DNA from: Chthoniobacteraceae bacterium
GTDB lineage: Bacteria > Verrucomicrobiota > Verrucomicrobiia > Chthoniobacterales > Chthoniobacteraceae
Length of the DNA: 64,000 nt
Direction of reading: 5' to 3'
NCBI GenBank assembly: GCA_028293625.1
Contig: JAQGOL010000025.1
Location: 62,001 to 126,000, forward strand
The notes under the pieces were generated by a model that saw nothing but the letters and a program-made list of their open reading frames with translations, searched no databases and was not told where the DNA came from. A program made the translations under genes and the position numbers. This document shows positions 10,407-64,000 of this stretch, piece after piece; the first letter of the stretch is position 1, and every line of letters starts with the position of its first letter.

Positions 10407-10988
10407 TCACTGCTTTACCCGGACTTCGGAAAAAACCAAGGCGCGCTCGTTTTGGTTGAGCTCGCGCCATTGGCTGGCCGGAAGATTGCCGAGTTCAAAA
10501 CCGCCGATTCGGACCCGGCTCAACCGCAGCGTGGGATGGCCGACCGCGGCCGTCATCCGGCGAACCTGATGATTCTTACCTTCAACCAATTCCAGGGCAA
10601 TCCAGACATCGACCACGCTTTTGCGGTAACGCACCGGAGGATCGCGGGGCGCCACCTCGGGTTGCGGATCGAGCAGCCAGGCGCGGCCCGGCAACGTTTT
10701 GTGGCCGCCAATAACCACGCCGCGCTCAAGCTGCCTCAATGCCTCGGCCGTAGGCACCCGCTCCACAAGCGCCCAGTAGGTGCGCCAATGGCCTTGGCTG
10801 GGATGGAGCAGCCGGGCGTTGAGAGCCGTTTCGTCGCTTAAAAGAAGCAACCCTTCGCTCTCGGCATCGAGCCGGCCGATTGGGTAGATGTTTTTGGGAA
10901 ATCCGAAATCGGCCAGGGTCCGATGCGGCGAGCCGTCGGACGTAAATTGCGAGATGACTCCAAACGGTTTGTGAAAGGCAAGAAGCAC
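10407..10988 (-). CDS. RsuA/RluE-type pseudouridine synthase
   Basis: 193 aa; LAFHKPFGVISQF, YPIGRLDAESEGLLLLSDE, GKNHQVRRM. Confidence 0.92.
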   Translation of the reverse strand: MLLAFHKPFGVISQFTSDGSPHRTLADFGFPKNIYPIGRLDAESEGLLLLSDETALNARLLHPSQGHWRTYWALVERVPTAEALRQLERGVVIGGHKTLPGRAWLLDPQPEVAPRDPPVRYRKSVVDVWIALELVEGKNHQVRRMTAAVGHPTLRLSRVRIGGFELGNLPASQWRELNQNERALVFSEVRVKQ

Positions 10989-11061
10989 GGCAAAAGAGTG
11001 GTTGGGTCTAAAGATCGCGTGACGTTCCGTCTATTTGCGAATCGAATAACCTTTTTCCCGA

Positions 11062-13593
11062 ATGATTCGCCGCGAACTCCCCATTTTTGAACTCGAATCG
11101 CAGATTATCGCCTCGCTGAGAGCCCATTCGCGGCTTGTCCTGCAAGCGCCGACCGGCTCGGGCAAGTCGACCCAGGTACCGCAGATTCTGCTCGATCATG
11201 GCTTCGCAGCCGAGGGGGAAATTGTCGTGCTGCAACCGCGCCGGCTCGCCACCCGAATGCTCGCGGCGCGCGTGGCAAGCGAACGCGGCGGACGCCTGGG
11301 TGAGGAAGTCGGTTACCAGATCCGGCTCGATCGGGTGGTATCGGCCCGAACCAAAATCCGGTTCGTCACCGAAGGGATTCTGCTGCGTCAAATGCTGGCT
11401 GATCCCACCCTCAAAGGCGTTGCGGCCATCCTTTTTGACGAATTCCATGAGCGTCATCTTTACGGCGACATCACCCTGGCGCGCTCGCTCGATCTTCAGG
11501 AAACACTCCGGCCGGATCTCAAACTGGTTGTCATGTCGGCAACGCTCGATGCCGGATCGCTTCAAAAATACCTGGCCCCATGCGACCGGCTGACTTCAAG
11601 CGGCCGGACGTTCCCCGTGGAAATCGAGTATCTGGAAAAATCGATCGGCGATTGGCCGGTCTGGGAAGCGGCAGCTGAAGAAGTGGAACGGCTCGCAGGG
11701 CAGACCGAAGGCGACATGCTCGTTTTCATGCCCGGCGCTTTCGAGATCAACCGCACCATCCAGGCGATCCGTGCATCGCGGGCCGGCAGTCAGTTTATGG
11801 TGCTCCCGCTGCATGGCGAACTGCCCGTGTCCGATCAGGATGCCGCCGTCGCCCGGTATGAAAGGCGCAAAGTCATCGTCTCAACCAATGTGGCTGAAAC
11901 CTCGCTGACCATTGACGGAGTGCGTGTCGTCGTCGATGCGGGTCTTGCCAAGATCGCCCGGTTCGATCCCTACCGCGGGATCAATACGCTTTTGGTCGAA
12001 AGAGTCAGCCGCGCATCTGCCGATCAACGTGCCGGACGCGCCGGACGCACTGCCCCGGGCCGATGCATCCGGCTTTGGACCGAACGCGAACATGGCGACC
12101 GGGCGGCCCAGGAGCTTCCCGAGATCCGGCGGCTCGACCTTGCTGAAGTCGTGCTTACTCTCAAGGCAAGCGGCATTCACGACGTTGCCGGATTTCGCTG
12201 GCTGGAACCGCCCGACGCCCGTTCGCTTGAACGCGCTTTGACATTGCTCGAAGATCTCGGCGCACTCGATGCCGCCGGCGTGATCACCCCGCTGGGCCGC
12301 CGGATGCTCGCTTTTCCCGCCCACCCGCGATACGCCCGGATGCTTCTGGCTGCGCACGAATTGGGATGCGTTCGGCCAATTGCCCTTGTCGCCGCGTTGA
12401 CCCAGGGCCGCAACCTGATGCGTCGGGCTGAAGGCAAGCAGATGGAAAAGGATCGCGAAAGTCTGCTTGGGGAGACCGTTGATTCAGATTTTTTCACCCT
12501 GATGCGGGGTCATCGGTTTGCCGAACAAAACCAATTTGATCCGCAACGTTGCCGCACGCTCGGCATCAACGGCCTGGCCGCCCGGGAAGCCGCGGCGTTG
12601 GCCGATCAGTTTCTAAAAATTGCAAGGGAAGAAGGACTCGATATTGAGTCGCACGAAAAACCTTCGGGTGAAGCCATCGCCCGTTGCGTGCTTGCCGGTT
12701 TTCCCGATCAGGTAGCTGTTCGCTGTGATGGCGGCACATTGCGCTGCCAGCTTGTCCATCATCGCAAAGGAGTGCTGGCCCGCGACAGCGTGGTTCATGA
12801 CGCGCCGCTGCTGGTGGTTGGCGAAGTCAGGGAACTTGAGATCCGCGGTGAACTTGAAACCTTGTTAACCCTCGCCACCGCTATCAAGGAAGAATGGCTG
12901 CGCGACCTGTTTCCCGAAGGATTTAAAGACGTTACAGAGGTTGCTTACGACACTACGCAGCGCCGCGTTACGGCCCGGCGGATCACCCGGTTTCGCGATC
13001 TCTTATTGCGCTCGGAATCATCCGATAAAGTGCCCTTGGAACAAGCTGCGGAACTCCTCGCAAAGGAAGTGGCTTCCGGTTCCTGCGTTCTCAAAAACTG
13101 GGATAACGCGGTCGATCAATGGATACTTCGGCTCAACCTGCTTGCGGATTGGTACCCGGAGTTTGAATTACCCAAGCTCGGCGAGTCCGATCGCCATCTG
13201 CTTGTCGAGCAGATCTGTCATGGCGCCACCAGTTACAAAGAAATCAAGGAACGCCAGGTGTGGAGCGTGGTGAAATCGTGGCTCTCCGCGGCGCAACAAA
13301 TAGTAGTGGACGATTATGCGCCGGAACGCATCGAACTGCTAAAAGGGCGCAAGTTTAAAATTACTTACGCCCCCAACTCGGCCCCTACGATCGCCGCGCG
13401 CATTCAGGACCTGTACGGAGTCACAGCCGACCTTCGCATTGCCGGAGGCCGCGTGCCGCTGGTCATTCAAGTGCTCGCACCAAACCATCGTCCAATTCAG
13501 ATTACGCAAAACCTGGGTAACTTCTGGAAAGAATCGTATCCAAAAATCAAACAGGAATTACAGCGCAAGTATCCCAGACATGAATGGCGTTAA
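11062..13593 (+). CDS. hrpB: ATP-dependent helicase HrpB
   Basis: 843 aa DEAH helicase; LQAPTGSGKSTQVPQ, DEFHERHL, QRAGRAGRTAPGRCIRLW, HrpB C-terminal region. Confidence 0.95.
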   Translation: MIRRELPIFELESQIIASLRAHSRLVLQAPTGSGKSTQVPQILLDHGFAAEGEIVVLQPRRLATRMLAARVASERGGRLGEEVGYQIRLDRVVSARTKIRFVTEGILLRQMLADPTLKGVAAILFDEFHERHLYGDITLARSLDLQETLRPDLKLVVMSATLDAGSLQKYLAPCDRLTSSGRTFPVEIEYLEKSIGDWPVWEAAAEEVERLAGQTEGDMLVFMPGAFEINRTIQAIRASRAGSQFMVLPLHGELPVSDQDAAVARYERRKVIVSTNVAETSLTIDGVRVVVDAGLAKIARFDPYRGINTLLVERVSRASADQRAGRAGRTAPGRCIRLWTEREHGDRAAQELPEIRRLDLAEVVLTLKASGIHDVAGFRWLEPPDARSLERALTLLEDLGALDAAGVITPLGRRMLAFPAHPRYARMLLAAHELGCVRPIALVAALTQGRNLMRRAEGKQMEKDRESLLGETVDSDFFTLMRGHRFAEQNQFDPQRCRTLGINGLAAREAAALADQFLKIAREEGLDIESHEKPSGEAIARCVLAGFPDQVAVRCDGGTLRCQLVHHRKGVLARDSVVHDAPLLVVGEVRELEIRGELETLLTLATAIKEEWLRDLFPEGFKDVTEVAYDTTQRRVTARRITRFRDLLLRSESSDKVPLEQAAELLAKEVASGSCVLKNWDNAVDQWILRLNLLADWYPEFELPKLGESDRHLLVEQICHGATSYKEIKERQVWSVVKSWLSAAQQIVVDDYAPERIELLKGRKFKITYAPNSAPTIAARIQDLYGVTADLRIAGGRVPLVIQVLAPNHRPIQITQNLGNFWKESYPKIKQELQRKYPRHEWR

Positions 13594-55692: not shown

Positions 55693-55716
55693 ATACCATA
55701 CTGGGTTAGTATGTAT
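55693..55716. promoter_or_regulatory. Rrf2-like imperfect palindrome upstream of the sulfate operon
   Basis: ATACCATACTGGGTTAGTATGTAT: CATACT-gggtt-AGTATG core, flanked by ATA/TAT. Confidence 0.35.
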
Positions 55717-55827
55717 GAAAACACGCGGTCGGCCATGTTGCGCTTCCAATGCGCCTCTTCCATCCCGCGGCAAGCCGTTCGCAAAACCGGCCTTTACGGC
55801 GCCGGGATCTGCTTCTTAAAACTTTCC

Positions 55828-56841
55828 ATGCACCCGCTCTTAATCATCCCAATAGGCCGGCTCAGGCCGCTTCTCGCCGCGCTCGCTTTTGCCAGCGGCG
55901 CCGCGCATGCCGAGACCACCCTGCTAAACGTTTCCTACGACGTCACCCGCGAACTCTTTAAGGAAGTCAACCCGGCGTTCAGCGCGAAATGGAAAGCGGA
56001 GACAGGCGAAACGGTCAGCATCAACCAATCGCACGGAGGATCGAGCAAACAGGTGCGGGCGGTGCTCGATGGGCTCGAAGCGGACGTGGTTACAATGAAT
56101 CAATCGACCGACATCGATGTGCTCGCAGCCGCCGGTCTTGTGGATAAGCAGTGGGAAAGCCGGTTCCCGGAAAACGCGGCGCCTTTTACCTCCACGATCG
56201 TTTTTGTTGTCCGAAAAGGGAACCCCAAGAAGATCAAGGAATGGGTCGACCTGGTCAGGGAAGGTATGCAGGTGATCATTCCAAATCCGAAAACCTCAGG
56301 CAACGGCCGCTACAGCTATCTGGCGGCATGGGGCGTCGCGCGAAAGGCCGCCGGCGGGAGTGATGCGGTCGCCAAGGATTTTGTCACCAAGCTTTTTAAA
56401 AACGTGCCTGTGCTCGACTCCGGCGGCCGTGGCGCAACGACGACTTTTGCCCAGCGCGGCATTGGCGACGTGCTGCTGACCTTTGAAAATGAGGCCGTTC
56501 TTACCCAGAAAGAACTCGGCGGCGGCGGTCTTCAAATTGTCTATCCGTCTTCCAGTATCCTGGCCGAGGCGCCCATTGCCGTGGTTGACAAGGTGGTGGA
56601 CAAAAGAGGGACCCGCAAACAGGCGGAAGCTTATCTGCGGTTTCTTTACTCGCCGGCCGGGCAGGAGCTCGCCGCCAAACATTCGCTTCGGCCCCGCTCC
56701 CCGGAAGTGCTTGCAAAACACGCCGCCGCGTTTCCCCAGCTCAATCTGCTGAGCATCGCCGATGCCGCCGGTGGATGGAGTCAGGCTCAAAAGACGCATT
56801 TTAACGACGGCGGCATTTTTGATCAGATCTATCTCAAGTAA
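55828..56841 (+). CDS. Sulfate/thiosulfate ABC transporter substrate-binding protein
   Basis: Signal peptide then TTLLNVSYDVTRELFKEVNPAFSAKW, NQSHGGSSKQVRAVLDGLEADVVTMNQSTDID; start trimmed from 55711. Confidence 0.95.
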   Translation: MHPLLIIPIGRLRPLLAALAFASGAAHAETTLLNVSYDVTRELFKEVNPAFSAKWKAETGETVSINQSHGGSSKQVRAVLDGLEADVVTMNQSTDIDVLAAAGLVDKQWESRFPENAAPFTSTIVFVVRKGNPKKIKEWVDLVREGMQVIIPNPKTSGNGRYSYLAAWGVARKAAGGSDAVAKDFVTKLFKNVPVLDSGGRGATTTFAQRGIGDVLLTFENEAVLTQKELGGGGLQIVYPSSSILAEAPIAVVDKVVDKRGTRKQAEAYLRFLYSPAGQELAAKHSLRPRSPEVLAKHAAAFPQLNLLSIADAAGGWSQAQKTHFNDGGIFDQIYLK

Positions 56842-56850
56842 CCCATTTCT

Positions 56851-57864
56851 ATGAGCTCCCTCCCTGCGTATCCACTCCCTGAAATTGCTGTTTCCGACTC
56901 CACGCGGATCCAGCCGAGCATCCTCTCGACGATTGGCCGCACGCCGTTGATCCGGCTCAACCGGATCACGCAAGGAGTGCAAGCCACCGTGCTACTGAAA
57001 GGGGAGTTTTTTAATCCGCTTGGCAGTGTAAAGGATCGTATCGGCGCGGCGATGATTGAGGCGGCTGAACGCGATGGCCGGCTGACTCCGGATACCCTGA
57101 TCATTGAACCGACTTCGGGCAATACCGGTATCGCGCTGGCTTTTGTCGCCGCGGCCAAAGGTTACCGGCTCCTGTTGACGATGCCTGAGACGATGAGCCT
57201 TGAGCGGCGCACATTGCTGGCGATGCTCGGCGCGAAACTTGTGCTGACTCCAGCCAGTGAAGGAATGCGCGGTGCCATCCAGCGCGCCCAGGAGCTCCAC
57301 GCTGAGACACCCTCCTCGTGGATCCCGATGCAGTTCAGCAATCCCGCCAACCCGGAGGTGCACCGGCGCACCACGGCCGAGGAAATCTGGCACGATACCA
57401 ATGGGCTGATCGATATTTTTGTCTCAGCGGTGGGAACCGGCGGGACCATCACCGGTGTGGCCGAAGTGATCAAACCGCGCAGACCCGGCTTTCATGCCAT
57501 CGCCGTGGAACCAGCCGGTTCGCCGGTCATCGCACAAACCCTGCGCGGGGAACCGGTCCGGCCCGGGCCGCATAAAATCCAGGGGACCGGCGCGGGATTT
57601 ATTCCCGAGAACCTGAACCTGGAAATCGTCGATCAGGTCGTCGCCGTCAGCAACGAAGATGCGATTGAAATGACCCGGCAACTGGCGCTTCAGGAGGGAA
57701 TCCTGGCGGGCATTTCCACCGGGGCGAACGTTTTTGCGGCACTAAACGCGGCACGGCTTCCTGAAAACAAAGGCAAACTCATCGTTACGGTTGGATGCAG
57801 CACAGGCGAACGTTATTTGAGCACGGACCTGGCCATGGCCGCTCGCAAGGAGGTTGGATCATGA
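56851..57864 (+). CDS. cysK: Cysteine synthase A
   Basis: 337 aa; GRTPLIRLNRIT, GEFFNPLGSVKDRIG, EPTSGNTGIALAFVAAAKGY, GTGGTITGV. Confidence 0.95.
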   Translation: MSSLPAYPLPEIAVSDSTRIQPSILSTIGRTPLIRLNRITQGVQATVLLKGEFFNPLGSVKDRIGAAMIEAAERDGRLTPDTLIIEPTSGNTGIALAFVAAAKGYRLLLTMPETMSLERRTLLAMLGAKLVLTPASEGMRGAIQRAQELHAETPSSWIPMQFSNPANPEVHRRTTAEEIWHDTNGLIDIFVSAVGTGGTITGVAEVIKPRRPGFHAIAVEPAGSPVIAQTLRGEPVRPGPHKIQGTGAGFIPENLNLEIVDQVVAVSNEDAIEMTRQLALQEGILAGISTGANVFAALNAARLPENKGKLIVTVGCSTGERYLSTDLAMAARKEVGS

Positions 57865-58706
57865 CAGCATTGGAGTATACCAACACAATGGCTCCTGATC
57901 CACCCCATGGCCGTGTCACCGAGAAATCACGGCGCTCCATTAAAGAACTGCTGTTGCCCTTGTTTGTCCACGTAGGCGCGAGCGGGCAAAATCTTCGCGC
58001 CGATTCGGTCGGTTTCTGGCGGGTCAACGCAGATCGCTACTGGATGCCGCGGCTCATTTTCCGCGGCACGCAGAGCGAAGAGCCGCCGATCAAGCTGGCC
58101 ATCTTTGCCGGCATCCATGGCGACGAGCCCGCGGGCGTGCTGGCCGTGATCGATTTCCTGCGGTTTATTGAAGAAAACCCGATCCTGGGACGGGCGTATC
58201 ATCTCTACATCTATCCGCTCTGCAATCCGACCGGGTATGAGGATGGGACACGGGAATCGCGCAGTGGCAAGGATCTCAATCGCGAGTTCTGGCATGGATC
58301 CTCCGAGCCGGAAGTCGCTTTGATTGAGCAGGAGCTGATCCGGCACAATTTTAATGGCATCATCGCGCTTCATTCCGATGACACCAGCGACGGGCTTTAC
58401 GGCTTTGTGCGCGGTTCGACCCTCACTGAACTTCTGCTCAAGCCGGCCCTTGCCGCCGCCGAAGCCGCCCTCCCCGTCAACCAAGCCGCTGTGATTGACG
58501 GATTCCATGCAGTCAACGGAATCATTCACACCGCTTACGACGGCATCCTCACCGCGCCACCCGGGACGCGGCCGGCGCCAATGGAAATCATCCTCGAATC
58601 CCCGCATCACGCCCCACTGCATCTCCAGCGAAAAGCTTTCGTGCTTGCCGTGACCGAAATCATCCGCGAATACCGCCGCATGATCTCCTACAGCGCGGAT
58701 CTTTAA
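57861..58706 (+). CDS. M14 / succinylglutamate desuccinylase-aspartoacylase-type zinc hydrolase
   Basis: FAGIHGDEPAGVLAVIDFL (HxxE), LYIYPLCNPTGYEDGTRESRSGKDLNREF, IIALHSDD; ATGA overlap with cysK stop; start trimmed from 57795. Confidence 0.85.
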   Translation: MTALEYTNTMAPDPPHGRVTEKSRRSIKELLLPLFVHVGASGQNLRADSVGFWRVNADRYWMPRLIFRGTQSEEPPIKLAIFAGIHGDEPAGVLAVIDFLRFIEENPILGRAYHLYIYPLCNPTGYEDGTRESRSGKDLNREFWHGSSEPEVALIEQELIRHNFNGIIALHSDDTSDGLYGFVRGSTLTELLLKPALAAAEAALPVNQAAVIDGFHAVNGIIHTAYDGILTAPPGTRPAPMEIILESPHHAPLHLQRKAFVLAVTEIIREYRRMISYSADL

Positions 58707-58709
58707 ATC

Positions 58710-59537
58710 ATGGCGAAATTCCGCGTCCTGCCCGGCTTTGGCCTGTCGCTGGGATACACACTGCTCTATCTGGGGCTGATCGTGCTGATCCCGCTTTCGG
58801 CCACGTTTTTGAAAACAGCCGGGATGAGCTGGGCGGATTTTTTGGCCGCGGTCGCTTCCCCCCGCGTGATGGCATCCTACCGGTTGAGTTTTGGCGCGTC
58901 GTTTATTGCCGCCGCGATCAACACGGCGGCCGGGTTGCTCGTGGCATGGGTGCTGGTGCGTTACTCGTTTCCTGGAAAGAAGGTCGTCGATTCCCTGGTT
59001 GATCTTCCCTTTGCGTTGCCAACAGCCGTGGCGGGTATCGCGCTCACCGCCATTTACGCCCCGAACGGCTGGATCGGTTCCCTGCTGATGCCACTTGGGA
59101 TCAAAAGCGCATTTTCACCATTTGGCGTGATCATCGCGATGACCTTTATCGGTCTTCCTTTCGTTGTGCGCACCGTTCAACCGGTTCTGGAGGATCTCGA
59201 TCCTGAAGTCGAACAAGCCGCCGCCACGCTGGGCGCCAACCGCCTGACCACATTCATTTATGTGATCTTTCCGGAGATCTGGCCGGCGCTTTTAACCGGT
59301 TTTGCCATGGCATTTGCCCGCGCCATTGGCGAATACGGCTCGGTGGTTTTCATCGCCGGGAATATGCCGATGAAAACCGAGATCACGCCGCTGCTGATCA
59401 TCACCAAGCTTGAGCAATACGATTTTCGCGGCGCGACCGCCATTGCCGTCGTGATGCTTGTCGTTTCGTTTATACTCCTGCTCGGCATCAACCTGCTTCA
59501 ACGTTTCACCACCCGGCGCCGCAATGCGTTTGCCTGA
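58710..59537 (+). CDS. cysT: Sulfate ABC transporter permease CysT/CysU
   Basis: 275 aa; [64 protein letters not shown]. Confidence 0.94.
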
Positions 59538-59540
59538 CCG

Positions 59541-60410
59541 ATGCCCCGGCAACTTCAAAACCCGGTCCGGCCCGCCGTCGCGCGGGGCGCCGCCTCGCCC
59601 CTGGCCGAGCCGGCGTGGGTGCGCTGGTTGCTGATCGCGGCCGCGCTCGGCTTTCTCGCGCTGTTTCTCGGACTGCCCCTTGCCGCCGTTTTCATCGAGG
59701 CATTCCGCAAAGGCGTTTCCACCTATCTGGCGGCATTTGAAGATCCGGATGCCTGGGCTGCCATCAAGCTCACCCTGCTCACCGCTGGCATCGCCGTGCC
59801 ACTCAACCTGGTCTTTGGACTGGCCGCCGCGTGGTGCATCACCAAGTTCGATTTCCGCGGCAAAAGCCTGCTGATCACTTTTATTGACCTGCCATTTGCG
59901 GTTTCGCCGGTCATCTCGGGATTGATTTATGTCCTGCTTTTTGGCGCGCAAGGCTGGTTTGGGCCATGGCTTGCCGCCCATGACATCAAAATTATCTTCG
60001 CCGTTCCCGGCATCGTGCTGGCGAGCATCTTCGTCACTTTTCCCTTCGTGGCGCGCGAACTTATTCCCCTGATGCAATCCCAGGGAAGCGACGAGGAAGA
60101 GGCAGCGGTGAGCCTGGGCGCCACCGGCTGGCAAACCTTCTGGCATGTCACTTTGCCCAATGTGCGATGGGCGCTCCTTTACGGAGTCATCCTTTGCAAC
60201 GCGCGCGCCATGGGCGAGTTTGGCGCGGTTTCAGTCGTCAGCGGCCATATCCGGGGCAAAACCAACACGCTGCCGCTTCACGTCGAGATTCTCTATAATG
60301 AGTATAATTTCGTCGCGGCTTTTGCATGCGCGTCGCTGCTGGCTTTCCTGGCCATCGTCACCCTTGTGCTCAAATCGATCATAGAAGGCCGCCATCTTTC
60401 CAAGCCATGA
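59541..60410 (+). CDS. cysW: Sulfate ABC transporter permease CysW
   Basis: 289 aa; [74 protein letters not shown]. Confidence 0.95.
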
Positions 60411-61456
60411 GCATTGAAGCCCGCAATATCAGCCGTCATTTCGGCGCCTTCACGGCCCTCGATGACATCAATCTCAAGATCGGCACCGGCGAACTTGTCT
60501 CGCTCCTCGGCCCGTCCGGTTCGGGCAAAACCACGCTGCTGCGGATCATTGCCGGGCTTGAACGCTCCGATACCGGGAGCGTGCTTTTTAATGGAGAGGA
60601 CGCCACGCTTTTACCCGTCCGCGAACGGCAGGTCGGATTTGTTTTCCAACATTACGCGCTCTTCCGGCACATGAGCGTTTTTAAGAACATCGCTTTCGGG
60701 CTGAACGTACGCAGCGAACGCCCCTCCAAAGCCGCTATCCGCGATAAAGTGCGCAGCCTCCTTTCACTCGTGCAATTGGAAGGCCTGGAAGAGCGGTATC
60801 CCAACCAGCTCAGCGGTGGACAGCGCCAACGGGTCGCCCTGGCCCGGGCCCTTGCGATTGATCCCAAGGTCCTTCTGCTTGATGAGCCATTCGGCGCCCT
60901 TGACGCCCGGGTTCGCCACGAACTGCGGCGCTGGTTGCGGCAAATCCACCAGTCACTTCACATCACCACTCTTTTTGTCACGCACGACCAGGACGAAGCG
61001 CTTGAAGTGGCCGATCGCGTCGTCGTCATGAACCAGGCGCGCATCGAGCAAATCGGCTCGCCGGAGGAGATCTATGATCATCCCCGGACGCCATTTGTTC
61101 ATGAGTTCCTGGGGAAATCGAACACATTGAGCGTGAAGGTCGACAGCGGCGGCGCCTCGGTCGGCGCAATTGCTTTGCCACCCCCTGCCGCCGGCGGTGT
61201 CCATTCACTGACGGCCTATGTCAGGCCGCATCAGATTGGACTCTCGCGCGTGCCCAACGGAACTCCCGTGCTGCCTGTCAAAGTCACCCATATCCATGCC
61301 GCTGGTTCGAGTGCCCGGGTCGATTTGATCCGGATCGACAATGGCGAGGAACTTGCCGCGGAAATCTCGCGGGAAGACTTTGAGCAGCTCGCCCTGACGG
61401 TCGGGGAGGAAGCATTCGCCCGCTTTAAAAAGATCCAGGTTTACCCGGGCGGCTAG
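60407..61456 (+). CDS. cysA: Sulfate ABC transporter ATP-binding protein CysA
   Basis: [59 protein letters not shown]-like C-terminus; ATGA overlap with cysW; start trimmed from 60326. Confidence 0.95.
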
Positions 61457-61489: not shown

Positions 61490-63268
61490 ATGACAATCCC
61501 CACAAAGCCAGGAAACGACGAGGGAACCGTGGTTATCGTGGCCAACCGCGGCCCGCACGATTTTGTTTGGGAAGCGGGGCACTGGGTGGCCAAGCCTTCC
61601 ACGGGCGGACTCGTCAGCATGATCGAACCGCTGGCGCGCCAGCCCAACGTTGCCTGGTTTTGCTGCGTCTCGGAACCCCCAGGGAGCGAGGCCGACCGCG
61701 ACGCGCTTTATACTACCGCCAAGGATCAAATCGACCCGGACCTCAATGTCGTGCCGGTACCACTGCCGTCCGGTGTTTACAGAGATTATTACGGTGTCAT
61801 CAGCAACGAGATCCTCTGGATGCTTCATCACCATCTCGTGGGCCAGTTTGGATACGCCACGCTCGATGAAGAATCGCATCGCGCCTGGGACGCCTATCTT
61901 GAAGCCAACCGGCGCATGGCCGACGCCATTCTCGCCACGGAAATCCCGGTCCGGGCATTCCTCATCCAGGATTACCACCTCTACCCATTGGCCGCGATGT
62001 TGCGGCTGCATTTTCCGGAAACGCCAATCCTCCACTTTATCCACATCCCCTTTCCGGAACCTTCCACGCTCAAGCTTCTTCCCAAATCGTGGCGCAAGGC
62101 CCTTCTGGAAGGGCTGCTTGGCTCCGACGTCATTGGACTTCAAACCGCCGACGATGTGCGCTCGTTTCTCGCCTGCTGCGAGGAAATCCTTCGCATCCCG
62201 GTCGATGTGCATCTCGCCACGGTCACTCTCAGTTCGGGACGCAATGTCCGGGTCCGCGCGTTTCCGGCAAGCACCGACCCCGAGGCAATCCGTGCGTTGC
62301 AAGCCGGGGTTGAAGTCGACCTGGCCCGGAAACGGCTCGCCCCGCAGATGGAGGATCACACCATTATTCGTGTCGACCGCCTCGACCCGAGCAAAAACCA
62401 GATCATCGGTTTCAGCGCATTTGGCCGGTTGCTTGAACTCCATCCCGAATTCATTGGGCGGGTCCGTTTCCTTGCATTCCTGATTCCTTCGCGCACCGAT
62501 CTGACTGTCTATCGCGAATATCACGACGCCGTTTATCGTGAAATCGAGCGCATCAATTCCCGCTTTGTCCAGGCGTGTGGATTCAACCCCATCGAGGTTT
62601 TTTACACGAACGAACGCACCCAGGCTCTGGCCGCCATGGAATCGTGCGATGTGCTCCTGGTCAATTCCCGGCAAGATGGCATGAATCTCGTGGTCAAGGA
62701 ATGGGCATTGGTTTCCCGAAAACCGGGCGTCCTTGTGGTATCGGAAACCGCGGGCGTCGCATCGGCCACCGAGGAGGTTTCCCTCCAGATTTCCCCGCTC
62801 GACGTCGAAGGCACCGCCAAAGCTCTTGCCGAGGCGCTCCTCATGCCGCCGGACGCCCGCACGACCTGGCTTGAACAACTTCGCTCAGGGATTAAAAAAT
62901 GGACCGCGCGCGATTGGCTCGTGGCGCAGCTCCAGGAACTTGGCATCACCCTGCCTGAGCAAATAGCACGCGGCCCCCTTGATTTGGCGGATTCAAAAGG
63001 CGCCGTTGAATGGGAGCTCCAGGTCCTCAACAAGCGTGGTATTCATGCCCGGCCTGCGGCGACATTTGTGCAATGCGCCCGCGGTTTCCAGTGTGAGATC
63101 GAAATTGTCAGGGAGGGCGTCAGTTATTCAGCCAAGAGCATCCTCTCCGTGCTGACCGCCAATCTCGATTACGGCGCCGCCTTCACCCTGCGCGCTTCGG
63201 GTCCCGACGCCACGGCCGCCGCCGAACAGCTTCGCCAAGTCCTCGAAAGCTTCAAAAGCGAGGAGTAG
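61490..63268 (+). CDS. GT20 trehalose-6-phosphate-synthase-like glycosyltransferase fused to C-terminal HPr domain
   Basis: GT20 motifs (STGGLVSMIEPL, LIQDYHLYPLAAML, RVDRLDPSKN, NSRQDGMNLVVKEW) then HPr (LQVLNKRGIHARPAATFVQCARGF...SAKSILSVLTA) from about nt 62999. Confidence 0.93.
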   Translation: MTIPTKPGNDEGTVVIVANRGPHDFVWEAGHWVAKPSTGGLVSMIEPLARQPNVAWFCCVSEPPGSEADRDALYTTAKDQIDPDLNVVPVPLPSGVYRDYYGVISNEILWMLHHHLVGQFGYATLDEESHRAWDAYLEANRRMADAILATEIPVRAFLIQDYHLYPLAAMLRLHFPETPILHFIHIPFPEPSTLKLLPKSWRKALLEGLLGSDVIGLQTADDVRSFLACCEEILRIPVDVHLATVTLSSGRNVRVRAFPASTDPEAIRALQAGVEVDLARKRLAPQMEDHTIIRVDRLDPSKNQIIGFSAFGRLLELHPEFIGRVRFLAFLIPSRTDLTVYREYHDAVYREIERINSRFVQACGFNPIEVFYTNERTQALAAMESCDVLLVNSRQDGMNLVVKEWALVSRKPGVLVVSETAGVASATEEVSLQISPLDVEGTAKALAEALLMPPDARTTWLEQLRSGIKKWTARDWLVAQLQELGITLPEQIARGPLDLADSKGAVEWELQVLNKRGIHARPAATFVQCARGFQCEIEIVREGVSYSAKSILSVLTANLDYGAAFTLRASGPDATAAAEQLRQVLESFKSEE

Positions 63269-63420: not shown

Positions 63421-64000
63421 TCATTCGCGTGAACGGCGCCGGGTTAAAAGGCCCAGCGTGCCTGCAACCAGCAGAATGGCGGCGGAAGGTTCGGGGACTG
63501 ATGAAAGGAGAACGGGTGTCCCGATGGCAGTCACGCCGGTTTTTGAACTCCCGATTTGTTTGGTGGCTCCATCCTCCTGCCACAATGCGGAGATTCGGCT
63601 TACACCAACGGTAAAGGTTGGCAGGTAGAAGTTGGCGCTGATAGCTCCGGAGTCCGCGACGCTCGTGATCGTGAAGGTGGTAATTCCCAGGAAAAACTCG
63701 GTCCCATCCAGAATTGGAGTGCCGGTGGTGGTCACGGTGGAAGAACGCGCGGCGACATAACTCGTGCCGGGGAACGAGTTTGCCGGAGAGGCTGTCGTGG
63801 CCGAGGCGGAAGTACTGCCCAGGTCGAGGTCGCCATCGCCATCGAGGTCATGGGCTTGACCGGGCTGGGCGCCATTGCTGAAGACCGGATTTAAGCTGAC
63901 ATTATTGGCGAAATCGCCAAGCAACCCTCCGCTGGAAGTAAACAGGGAGAAGTAGAGAAGCTGGATCCCCTCGGCGGCCGTATTGCCCGAGGCGCCCGTC
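63421..64000 (-). CDS. PEP-CTERM sorting-domain protein (5' end beyond window)
   Basis: C-terminus SSVPEPSAAILLVAGTLGLLTRRRSRE; frame remains open to base 64000 (reads TGASGNTAAEGIQLLYFSLFTSSGG upstream of 63924). Confidence 0.88.
   Translation of the reverse strand, partial: TGASGNTAAEGIQLLYFSLFTSSGGLLGDFANNVSLNPVFSNGAQPGQAHDLDGDGDLDLGSTSASATTASPANSFPGTSYVAARSSTVTTTGTPILDGTEFFLGITTFTITSVADSGAISANFYLPTFTVGVSRISALWQEDGATKQIGSSKTGVTAIGTPVLLSSVPEPSAAILLVAGTLGLLTRRRSRE

Follow-up and report, generated by a model that had tools for sequence, protein, structure and literature searches.

The window analysed here is a 64,000-nucleotide stretch of contig JAQGOL010000025.1 from a Chthoniobacteraceae bacterium (genome G000), a soil organism of the Chthoniobacter group. 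It contains a gene for a single protein in which a GT20 domain, resembling trehalose-6-phosphate synthases, is followed by a PTS-HPr domain (Table 1); HPr is a small phosphocarrier protein that signals sugar availability. The gene is the last same-strand gene of a sulfate-type ABC operon and starts 33 bp after the stop codon of the CysA-like ATPase gene. Given this short gap, the two genes are probably co-transcribed. The gene order is similar in Chthoniobacter sp. RYN_611 (locus L037, the same sequence as in genome G019), where the CysK/CysM-like gene of the window run has no counterpart between the corresponding genes. A gene for a PEP-CTERM-type protein (63421-63924, minus strand; C-terminal VPEPSAAILLVAGTLGLLTRRRSRE) is convergent with the fusion gene.

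Table 1. Genes of the sulfate-type run and features of the fusion gene (window coordinates)
Feature	Position	Strand	Basis or remark
Extracellular solute-binding protein, start of sulfate-type ABC gene run	55711..56841	+	PF13531/PF01547; sulfate by sequence inspection
Cysteine synthase-like (CysK/CysM)	56851..57864	+	Sequence inspection of translation
AstE/AspA-like zinc deacylase, HGDE and later His present	57861..58706	+	PF24827 E 2e-11, alignment; listed ORF begins 57795
ABC permease, CysT-like	58710-59537	+	ORF; sequence inspection
ABC permease, CysW-like	59541-60410	+	ORF; sequence inspection
CysA-like ABC ATPase	60326..61456	+	ORF; sequence inspection
GT20-HPr fusion gene	61490..63268	+	ATG to TAG, 592 aa
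GT20 (trehalose-6-phosphate synthase-like) domain, residues 14-484	61529..62941	+	Pfam PF00982, active-site map, best PDB matches
Linker, residues 485-507, variable and partly disordered	62942..63010	+	Identity between copies; pLDDT
PTS-HPr domain, residues 508-586	63011..63247	+	PF00381, TIGR01003, element order in model
His519 codon (CAT), expected EI phosphorylation site, GIHARP	63044..63046	+	Invariant in four fused copies
Ser550 codon (AGC), AKSI; position that HprK phosphorylates in Gram-positive HPr	63137..63139	+	Invariant in four fused copies

The open reading frame has no internal stops, and its ATG is the first available in a stop-to-stop frame of only 596 codons. An earlier, sequence-only reading of this DNA had proposed a GT20 and an HPr domain in one frame. 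This is borne out, each domain lying far above its curated cut-offs, and the coordinates and residues given there (His519 at 63044-63046 and Ser550 in KSI) are correct. The Glyco_transf_20 profile (PF00982) matched with E 2.1e-94 and 317.4 bits against a cut-off of 32.5, covering positions 3-471 of 473, and PTS-HPr (PF00381) with E 5.8e-22 and 78 bits against a cut-off of 23. The HPr family model TIGR01003 scored 69.8 against a cut-off of 47.9. Only GT20 and HPr were matched in the chain by Pfam and NCBIfam, with no other PTS domain (EIIA or EI). An AlphaFold model built with 11 sequences (mean pLDDT 83.9, pTM 0.83) predicts the HPr fold order beta-alpha-beta-beta-alpha-beta-alpha at residues 505-587 and a disordered stretch of the linker at residues 492-502 (pLDDT below 50). 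The model was read domain by domain.

Searching 40 genomes of the family, we found four fusion genes in three genomes (G000, G002, and G019). The genome of the window carries a second copy on contig C14 (76% identical to the window gene), the Chthoniobacter sp. RYN_611 copy is 68-69% identical, and the copy in G002 (L009/L084) is 57-58% identical. The C14 copy lies at 8507-10297 of L083 (G000 C14:52000-71000), followed by an AstE-like gene at 10527-11321. Overlapping samples of 214 genomes of the order, 385 of the class, and 390 of the phylum added no further GT20-HPr fusions. A GTDB-wide scan with peptide patterns, which miss divergent copies, returned the L037 fusion and unfused relatives only. 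The architecture search that had been proposed earlier thus shows a fusion that recurs and is conserved but rare. The same reading had named a sequencing artefact joining two genes as what could undo it. The fusion occurs on two contigs here and in both other genomes (57-76% identity), which makes such an artefact exceedingly improbable; we take these three further fused genes to rule out a joining error in sequencing or assembly, and chance as well.

In trees, the four fused HPr domains form one clade (support 100/99); hence, there was probably one fusion event, which is the simplest reading of the origin of all four copies. The four fused GT20 domains likewise group together, though less strongly supported (81/62). 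The fused state was kept in all four divergent copies, and a split version was not seen. Text searches of open-access literature returned no description of a GT20-HPr architecture. The parts are of known kinds and their combination may be new, absence from a partial library not being proof.

Pairwise comparison of the four copies gave dN values of 0.13-0.36 for GT20 and similar values of 0.16-0.39 for HPr. For the 23-residue linker, which is 13-48% identical between copies, dN was 0.45-1.15. Values of dS were about 1-2.2 and partly saturated, so that dN/dS ratios are approximate. By these estimates, the HPr and GT20 domains are under similar purifying selection and the linker drifts, a pattern that fits two domains held under constraint and joined by a free tether. 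None of His519, Arg521, Pro522, or Ser550 varies among the four copies.

In the GT20 half, every tested glucose-6-phosphate-binding residue is kept: R20, Y101, D161, and R335 correspond to R9, Y76, D130, and R300 of Escherichia coli OtsA and to the contacts Arg18, Tyr90, Asp144, and Arg324 of mycobacterial OtsA (PMC6879718). W110, equivalent to E. coli W85 near the glucose-6-phosphate site, is conserved as well, and so are the NDP-glucose residues R297, K302, D396, N399, E404, and H185 (E. coli R262, K267, D361, N364, E369, and H154). With its catalytic-site residues kept where tested, the GT20 half looks functional, as does the HPr half. Over the aligned part, identity to E. coli OtsA is about 31%, and that enzyme belongs to a separate branch of the GT20 tree. 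The best solved match, for the GT20 half only, is OtsA of Streptomyces venezuelae (SvOtsA; 5LQD), a proven trehalose-6-phosphate synthase (PMC5247666), both by sequence (E 4e-67) and in the fold comparison (35% identity, TM 0.89 on the target); other trehalose-6-phosphate synthases, from fungi and bacteria, rank next. The tested donor and acceptor residues match those of both E. coli OtsA and SvOtsA, except at C58, which is Gly in E. coli OtsA and Cys in SvOtsA, and at base-pocket positions that vary among OtsA enzymes.

The motif LIQDYHL had been read as a sign of a non-standard acceptor or donor. The wording of the motif is correct, with Q right before the catalytic DYH. The interpretation does not hold up: the corresponding motif of SvOtsA is LVQDYHL, and the tested residues for binding glucose-6-phosphate are kept. 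The base pocket combines features of different enzymes, Asn374 agreeing with VldE and Arg376 with E. coli, followed by Ala379. The guanine-binding trio in VldE and SvOtsA is Asn/Asp, Val/Phe, and Thr/Ser (PMC5247666), and the GDP-glucose-dependent SvOtsA has Asp339, Phe341, and Ser344 at these positions. Because of this mixture, the nucleotide preference is not predictable.

The fusion protein missed the NCBIfam equivalog cut-off for OtsA (TIGR02400; 294.6 vs 564.85), and we therefore keep the family claim at GT20, OtsA-like, rather than certified OtsA. It also missed the cut-off for glucosylglycerol-phosphate synthase (TIGR02398; 158.7 vs 569). In line with the earlier remark that no OtsB is visible in the window, full-length OtsB was not found in any of the three fusion genomes, although two of these assemblies are only partly complete (G002 86%, G019 79%), which makes the absence there weak; no OtsB match of any length was seen in these two. 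The genome of the window holds only a short OtsB-like frame on contig C9 (L086 3460-4164), which covers positions 2-69 of the PF02358 profile, apparently lacks the cap region, and reads DFDAMV vs DxDGT. In E. coli, otsB adjoins otsA, whereas the fusion gene of the window has no such neighbor.

The missed OtsA cut-off and the lack of full-length OtsB would fit an enzyme that makes a different glycoside, perhaps a sulfur-linked one, instead of trehalose-6-phosphate, with HPr controlling that product. VldE is an example of a GT20 relative with altered chemistry, a sulfate-transport operon ends with the fusion gene in two of the four cases, and an AstE/AspA-like gene accompanies every copy. However, the tested glucose-6-phosphate-binding residues are all conserved, the nearest solved structures are trehalose-6-phosphate synthases, and the glucosylglycerol-phosphate synthase model scores far below the OtsA model. 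The link to sulfate is also loose: the C14 and G002 copies are outside such operons, and in G016, from the same family, there is a 70% identical CysA relative without a fusion gene, which rules out the sulfate operon as an obligate partner. We regard a different product as unlikely.

Unfused members of the same GT20 subfamily (about 52-63% identity) are found in Verrucomicrobiota, Phycisphaerae, and Chloroflexota. By sequence inspection, two of them (L040 8001-9527 and L042 7998-9572) lie in or beside kdp operons for potassium transport, either preceding a KdpD-like gene or following a KdpE-like one, a setting hinting at a role in osmotic stress. Other members carry different additions. In a 992-residue Verrucomicrobia protein (L039 6537-9515), a GT20 domain of this subfamily is fused with an FAD-NAD(P)-binding domain (PF13454), and a Chloroflexota member (L045 4317-6152) has an N-terminal extension of about 118 residues that is receiver-like by eye and has no Pfam match.

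The stand-alone HPr proteins of the family divide into two types. The first is the ptsH product, encoded between hprK and ptsI in the window genome, and the second is encoded beside a glycosyltransferase gene and kdsD (arabinose-5-phosphate isomerase, by sequence inspection) in many genomes of the family, including that of the window (L087 5730-6011; G000 C31). The tree rules out an origin of the fused HPr from the hprK-linked ptsH; the domain groups inside the kdsD-linked type, from which, on this phylogenetic evidence, it descends. The kdsD-linked proteins of Chthoniobacteraceae relatives are stand-alone, about 90 residues long, and up to 45-57% identical to the fused domain, with which they share SILxVLSANLxxG. 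They differ at the regulatory site, where all fused copies read AKSI and the residue before Ser in the kdsD-linked proteins is mostly A, S, G, or T instead of Lys. In Gram-positive HPr, the regulatory Ser is phosphorylated by HprK. A further stand-alone HPr, encoded about 18 kb past the end of the window (L085 18395-18799; G000 C26), reads LHLRPAA and TRSIFG, is divergent, and has a very long branch.

A check for ptsI and hprK, suggested together with the original observation, found HprK, ptsH, and EI all encoded in the genome. There is one HprK (E 3.9e-61), and there are two EI domains, one beside ptsH and one in an EIIA-HPr-EI chain. Because these phosphorylating partners exist, control by phosphorylation is plausible. 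The genome encodes six HPr domains, among them stand-alone HPr proteins of both types, and this bears on whether the fused domain is a passive tether, that is, an ordinary second phosphocarrier or an anchor that holds the synthase near PTS or HprK complexes for channelling, with no phosphorylation-dependent control. The flexible, fast-evolving linker would suit such a role, and this HPr type normally stands alone beside kdsD. Still, a spare carrier in fused form is unnecessary where stand-alone carriers of both types are present, and retention of the fusion in every divergent copy also argues against passivity, which we consider improbable.

The copies on C14 and in G002 show a different pattern. 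They lie outside sulfate operons, yet an AstE-like gene follows each, and the encoded AstE-like proteins have lost the HGDE motif (the HxxE zinc-ligand positions) and the later His. Donor residues are altered in the GT20 domain of G002 (Asp396 to Glu, Met398 to Ile, and Asn399 to Ser; SSQEGISLL vs NSRQDGMNLV), and in the C14 copy, one Gly of the GG donor loop is replaced by Asn. Given the AstE-like partners without the motif and the donor-site changes in G002, these copies may represent a non-catalytic offshoot of the fusion family, and the G002 fusion and its zinc-ligand-less AstE-like partner are a possible pseudoenzyme pair. These changes could mean that HPr is mainly a phosphocarrier or signal output, with GT20 sensing glucose-6-phosphate or NDP-glucose and tuning phosphate uptake by HPr or its transfer to EIIA or other targets. 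The HPr domain of G002 is intact beside the lost donor consensus, the context of the phosphorylation site is invariant, and the AstE-like partners look as if the pairs had turned into sensors. Against this, the window, C14, and L037 copies retain donor and acceptor residues apart from the one C14 glycine, GT20 is under purifying selection, and a dedicated EIIA gene was not seen beside the copies inspected. A role mainly as output is, in our view, improbable too.

PTS multiphosphoryl transfer proteins such as FruB/FPr, DhaM, and EIIA-HPr-EI likewise carry HPr within a longer, multidomain chain. The partners of HPr there are PTS domains, namely EIIA and EI, as in the HPr fusions that we found described in an evolutionary survey (PMC2405797), whereas the partner here is a biosynthetic glycosyltransferase. 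A functional precedent comes from E. coli, where free HPr directly regulates glycogen phosphorylase, a glucose-storage enzyme with a GT-B fold (PMC5320558, PMC4635465, PMC11046441), although the two are separate proteins acting in trans and the phosphorylase belongs to GT35, not GT20.

We give an about even chance to the reading that the fused HPr is a cis-acting regulatory domain that reports the phosphorylation state of the PTS to a trehalose-6-phosphate synthase. A more specific version, put forward more tentatively and at slightly less than an even chance, is that PEP and EI (through His519), and possibly HprK (through Ser550), set the synthase in cis with no separate regulator, which would make the protein a PTS-controlled glycosyltransferase that arose by a single fusion in Chthoniobacter relatives. 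The GT20 half would convert NDP-glucose and glucose-6-phosphate to trehalose-6-phosphate. With ample PEP and little uptake of PTS sugars, EI should phosphorylate His519; at high levels of glycolytic intermediates, HprK could act on Ser550. The phosphorylation state could then shift the packing of HPr on the GT-B enzyme, or on an oligomer, by way of the flexible linker and so turn synthesis on or off. In E. coli, free HPr acts on MtlR (PMC5320558), and dephospho-NPr is an inhibitor of LpxD, a biosynthetic enzyme (PMC4635465); by analogy, our guess is that dephospho HPr would be the interacting form.

Of the earlier proposal that phosphorylation of the tethered HPr gates the enzyme, the groundwork has stood up: the fusion is conserved, key residues are intact in both halves, the two sites are invariant, and the genome has EI and HprK genes. 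The gating itself, that is, the actual phosphorylation, the coupling between the domains and its sign, we infer, as we do the product. Several observations count against this main reading. The donor site of G002 is altered, so catalysis need not be the sole selected function. The fusion is rare, its linker is disordered in the model, the fate of trehalose-6-phosphate is unexplained without full-length OtsB, and carbon signalling does not explain the sulfate-operon setting.

With HPr and a biosynthetic glycosyltransferase in one chain, the protein would offer a ready-made test of cis gating of a metabolic enzyme, and because this single chain has two defined phosphorylation sites, simple in vitro mutants can settle the question. 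If the main reading is true, control by HPr, known for the free protein acting on glycogen phosphorylase, would reach trehalose synthesis as well, and the sugar-signalling chain would act directly on osmolyte or carbon storage. For the kdsD-linked HPr type of these bacteria, which has been little studied, the fusion likewise hints at a function.
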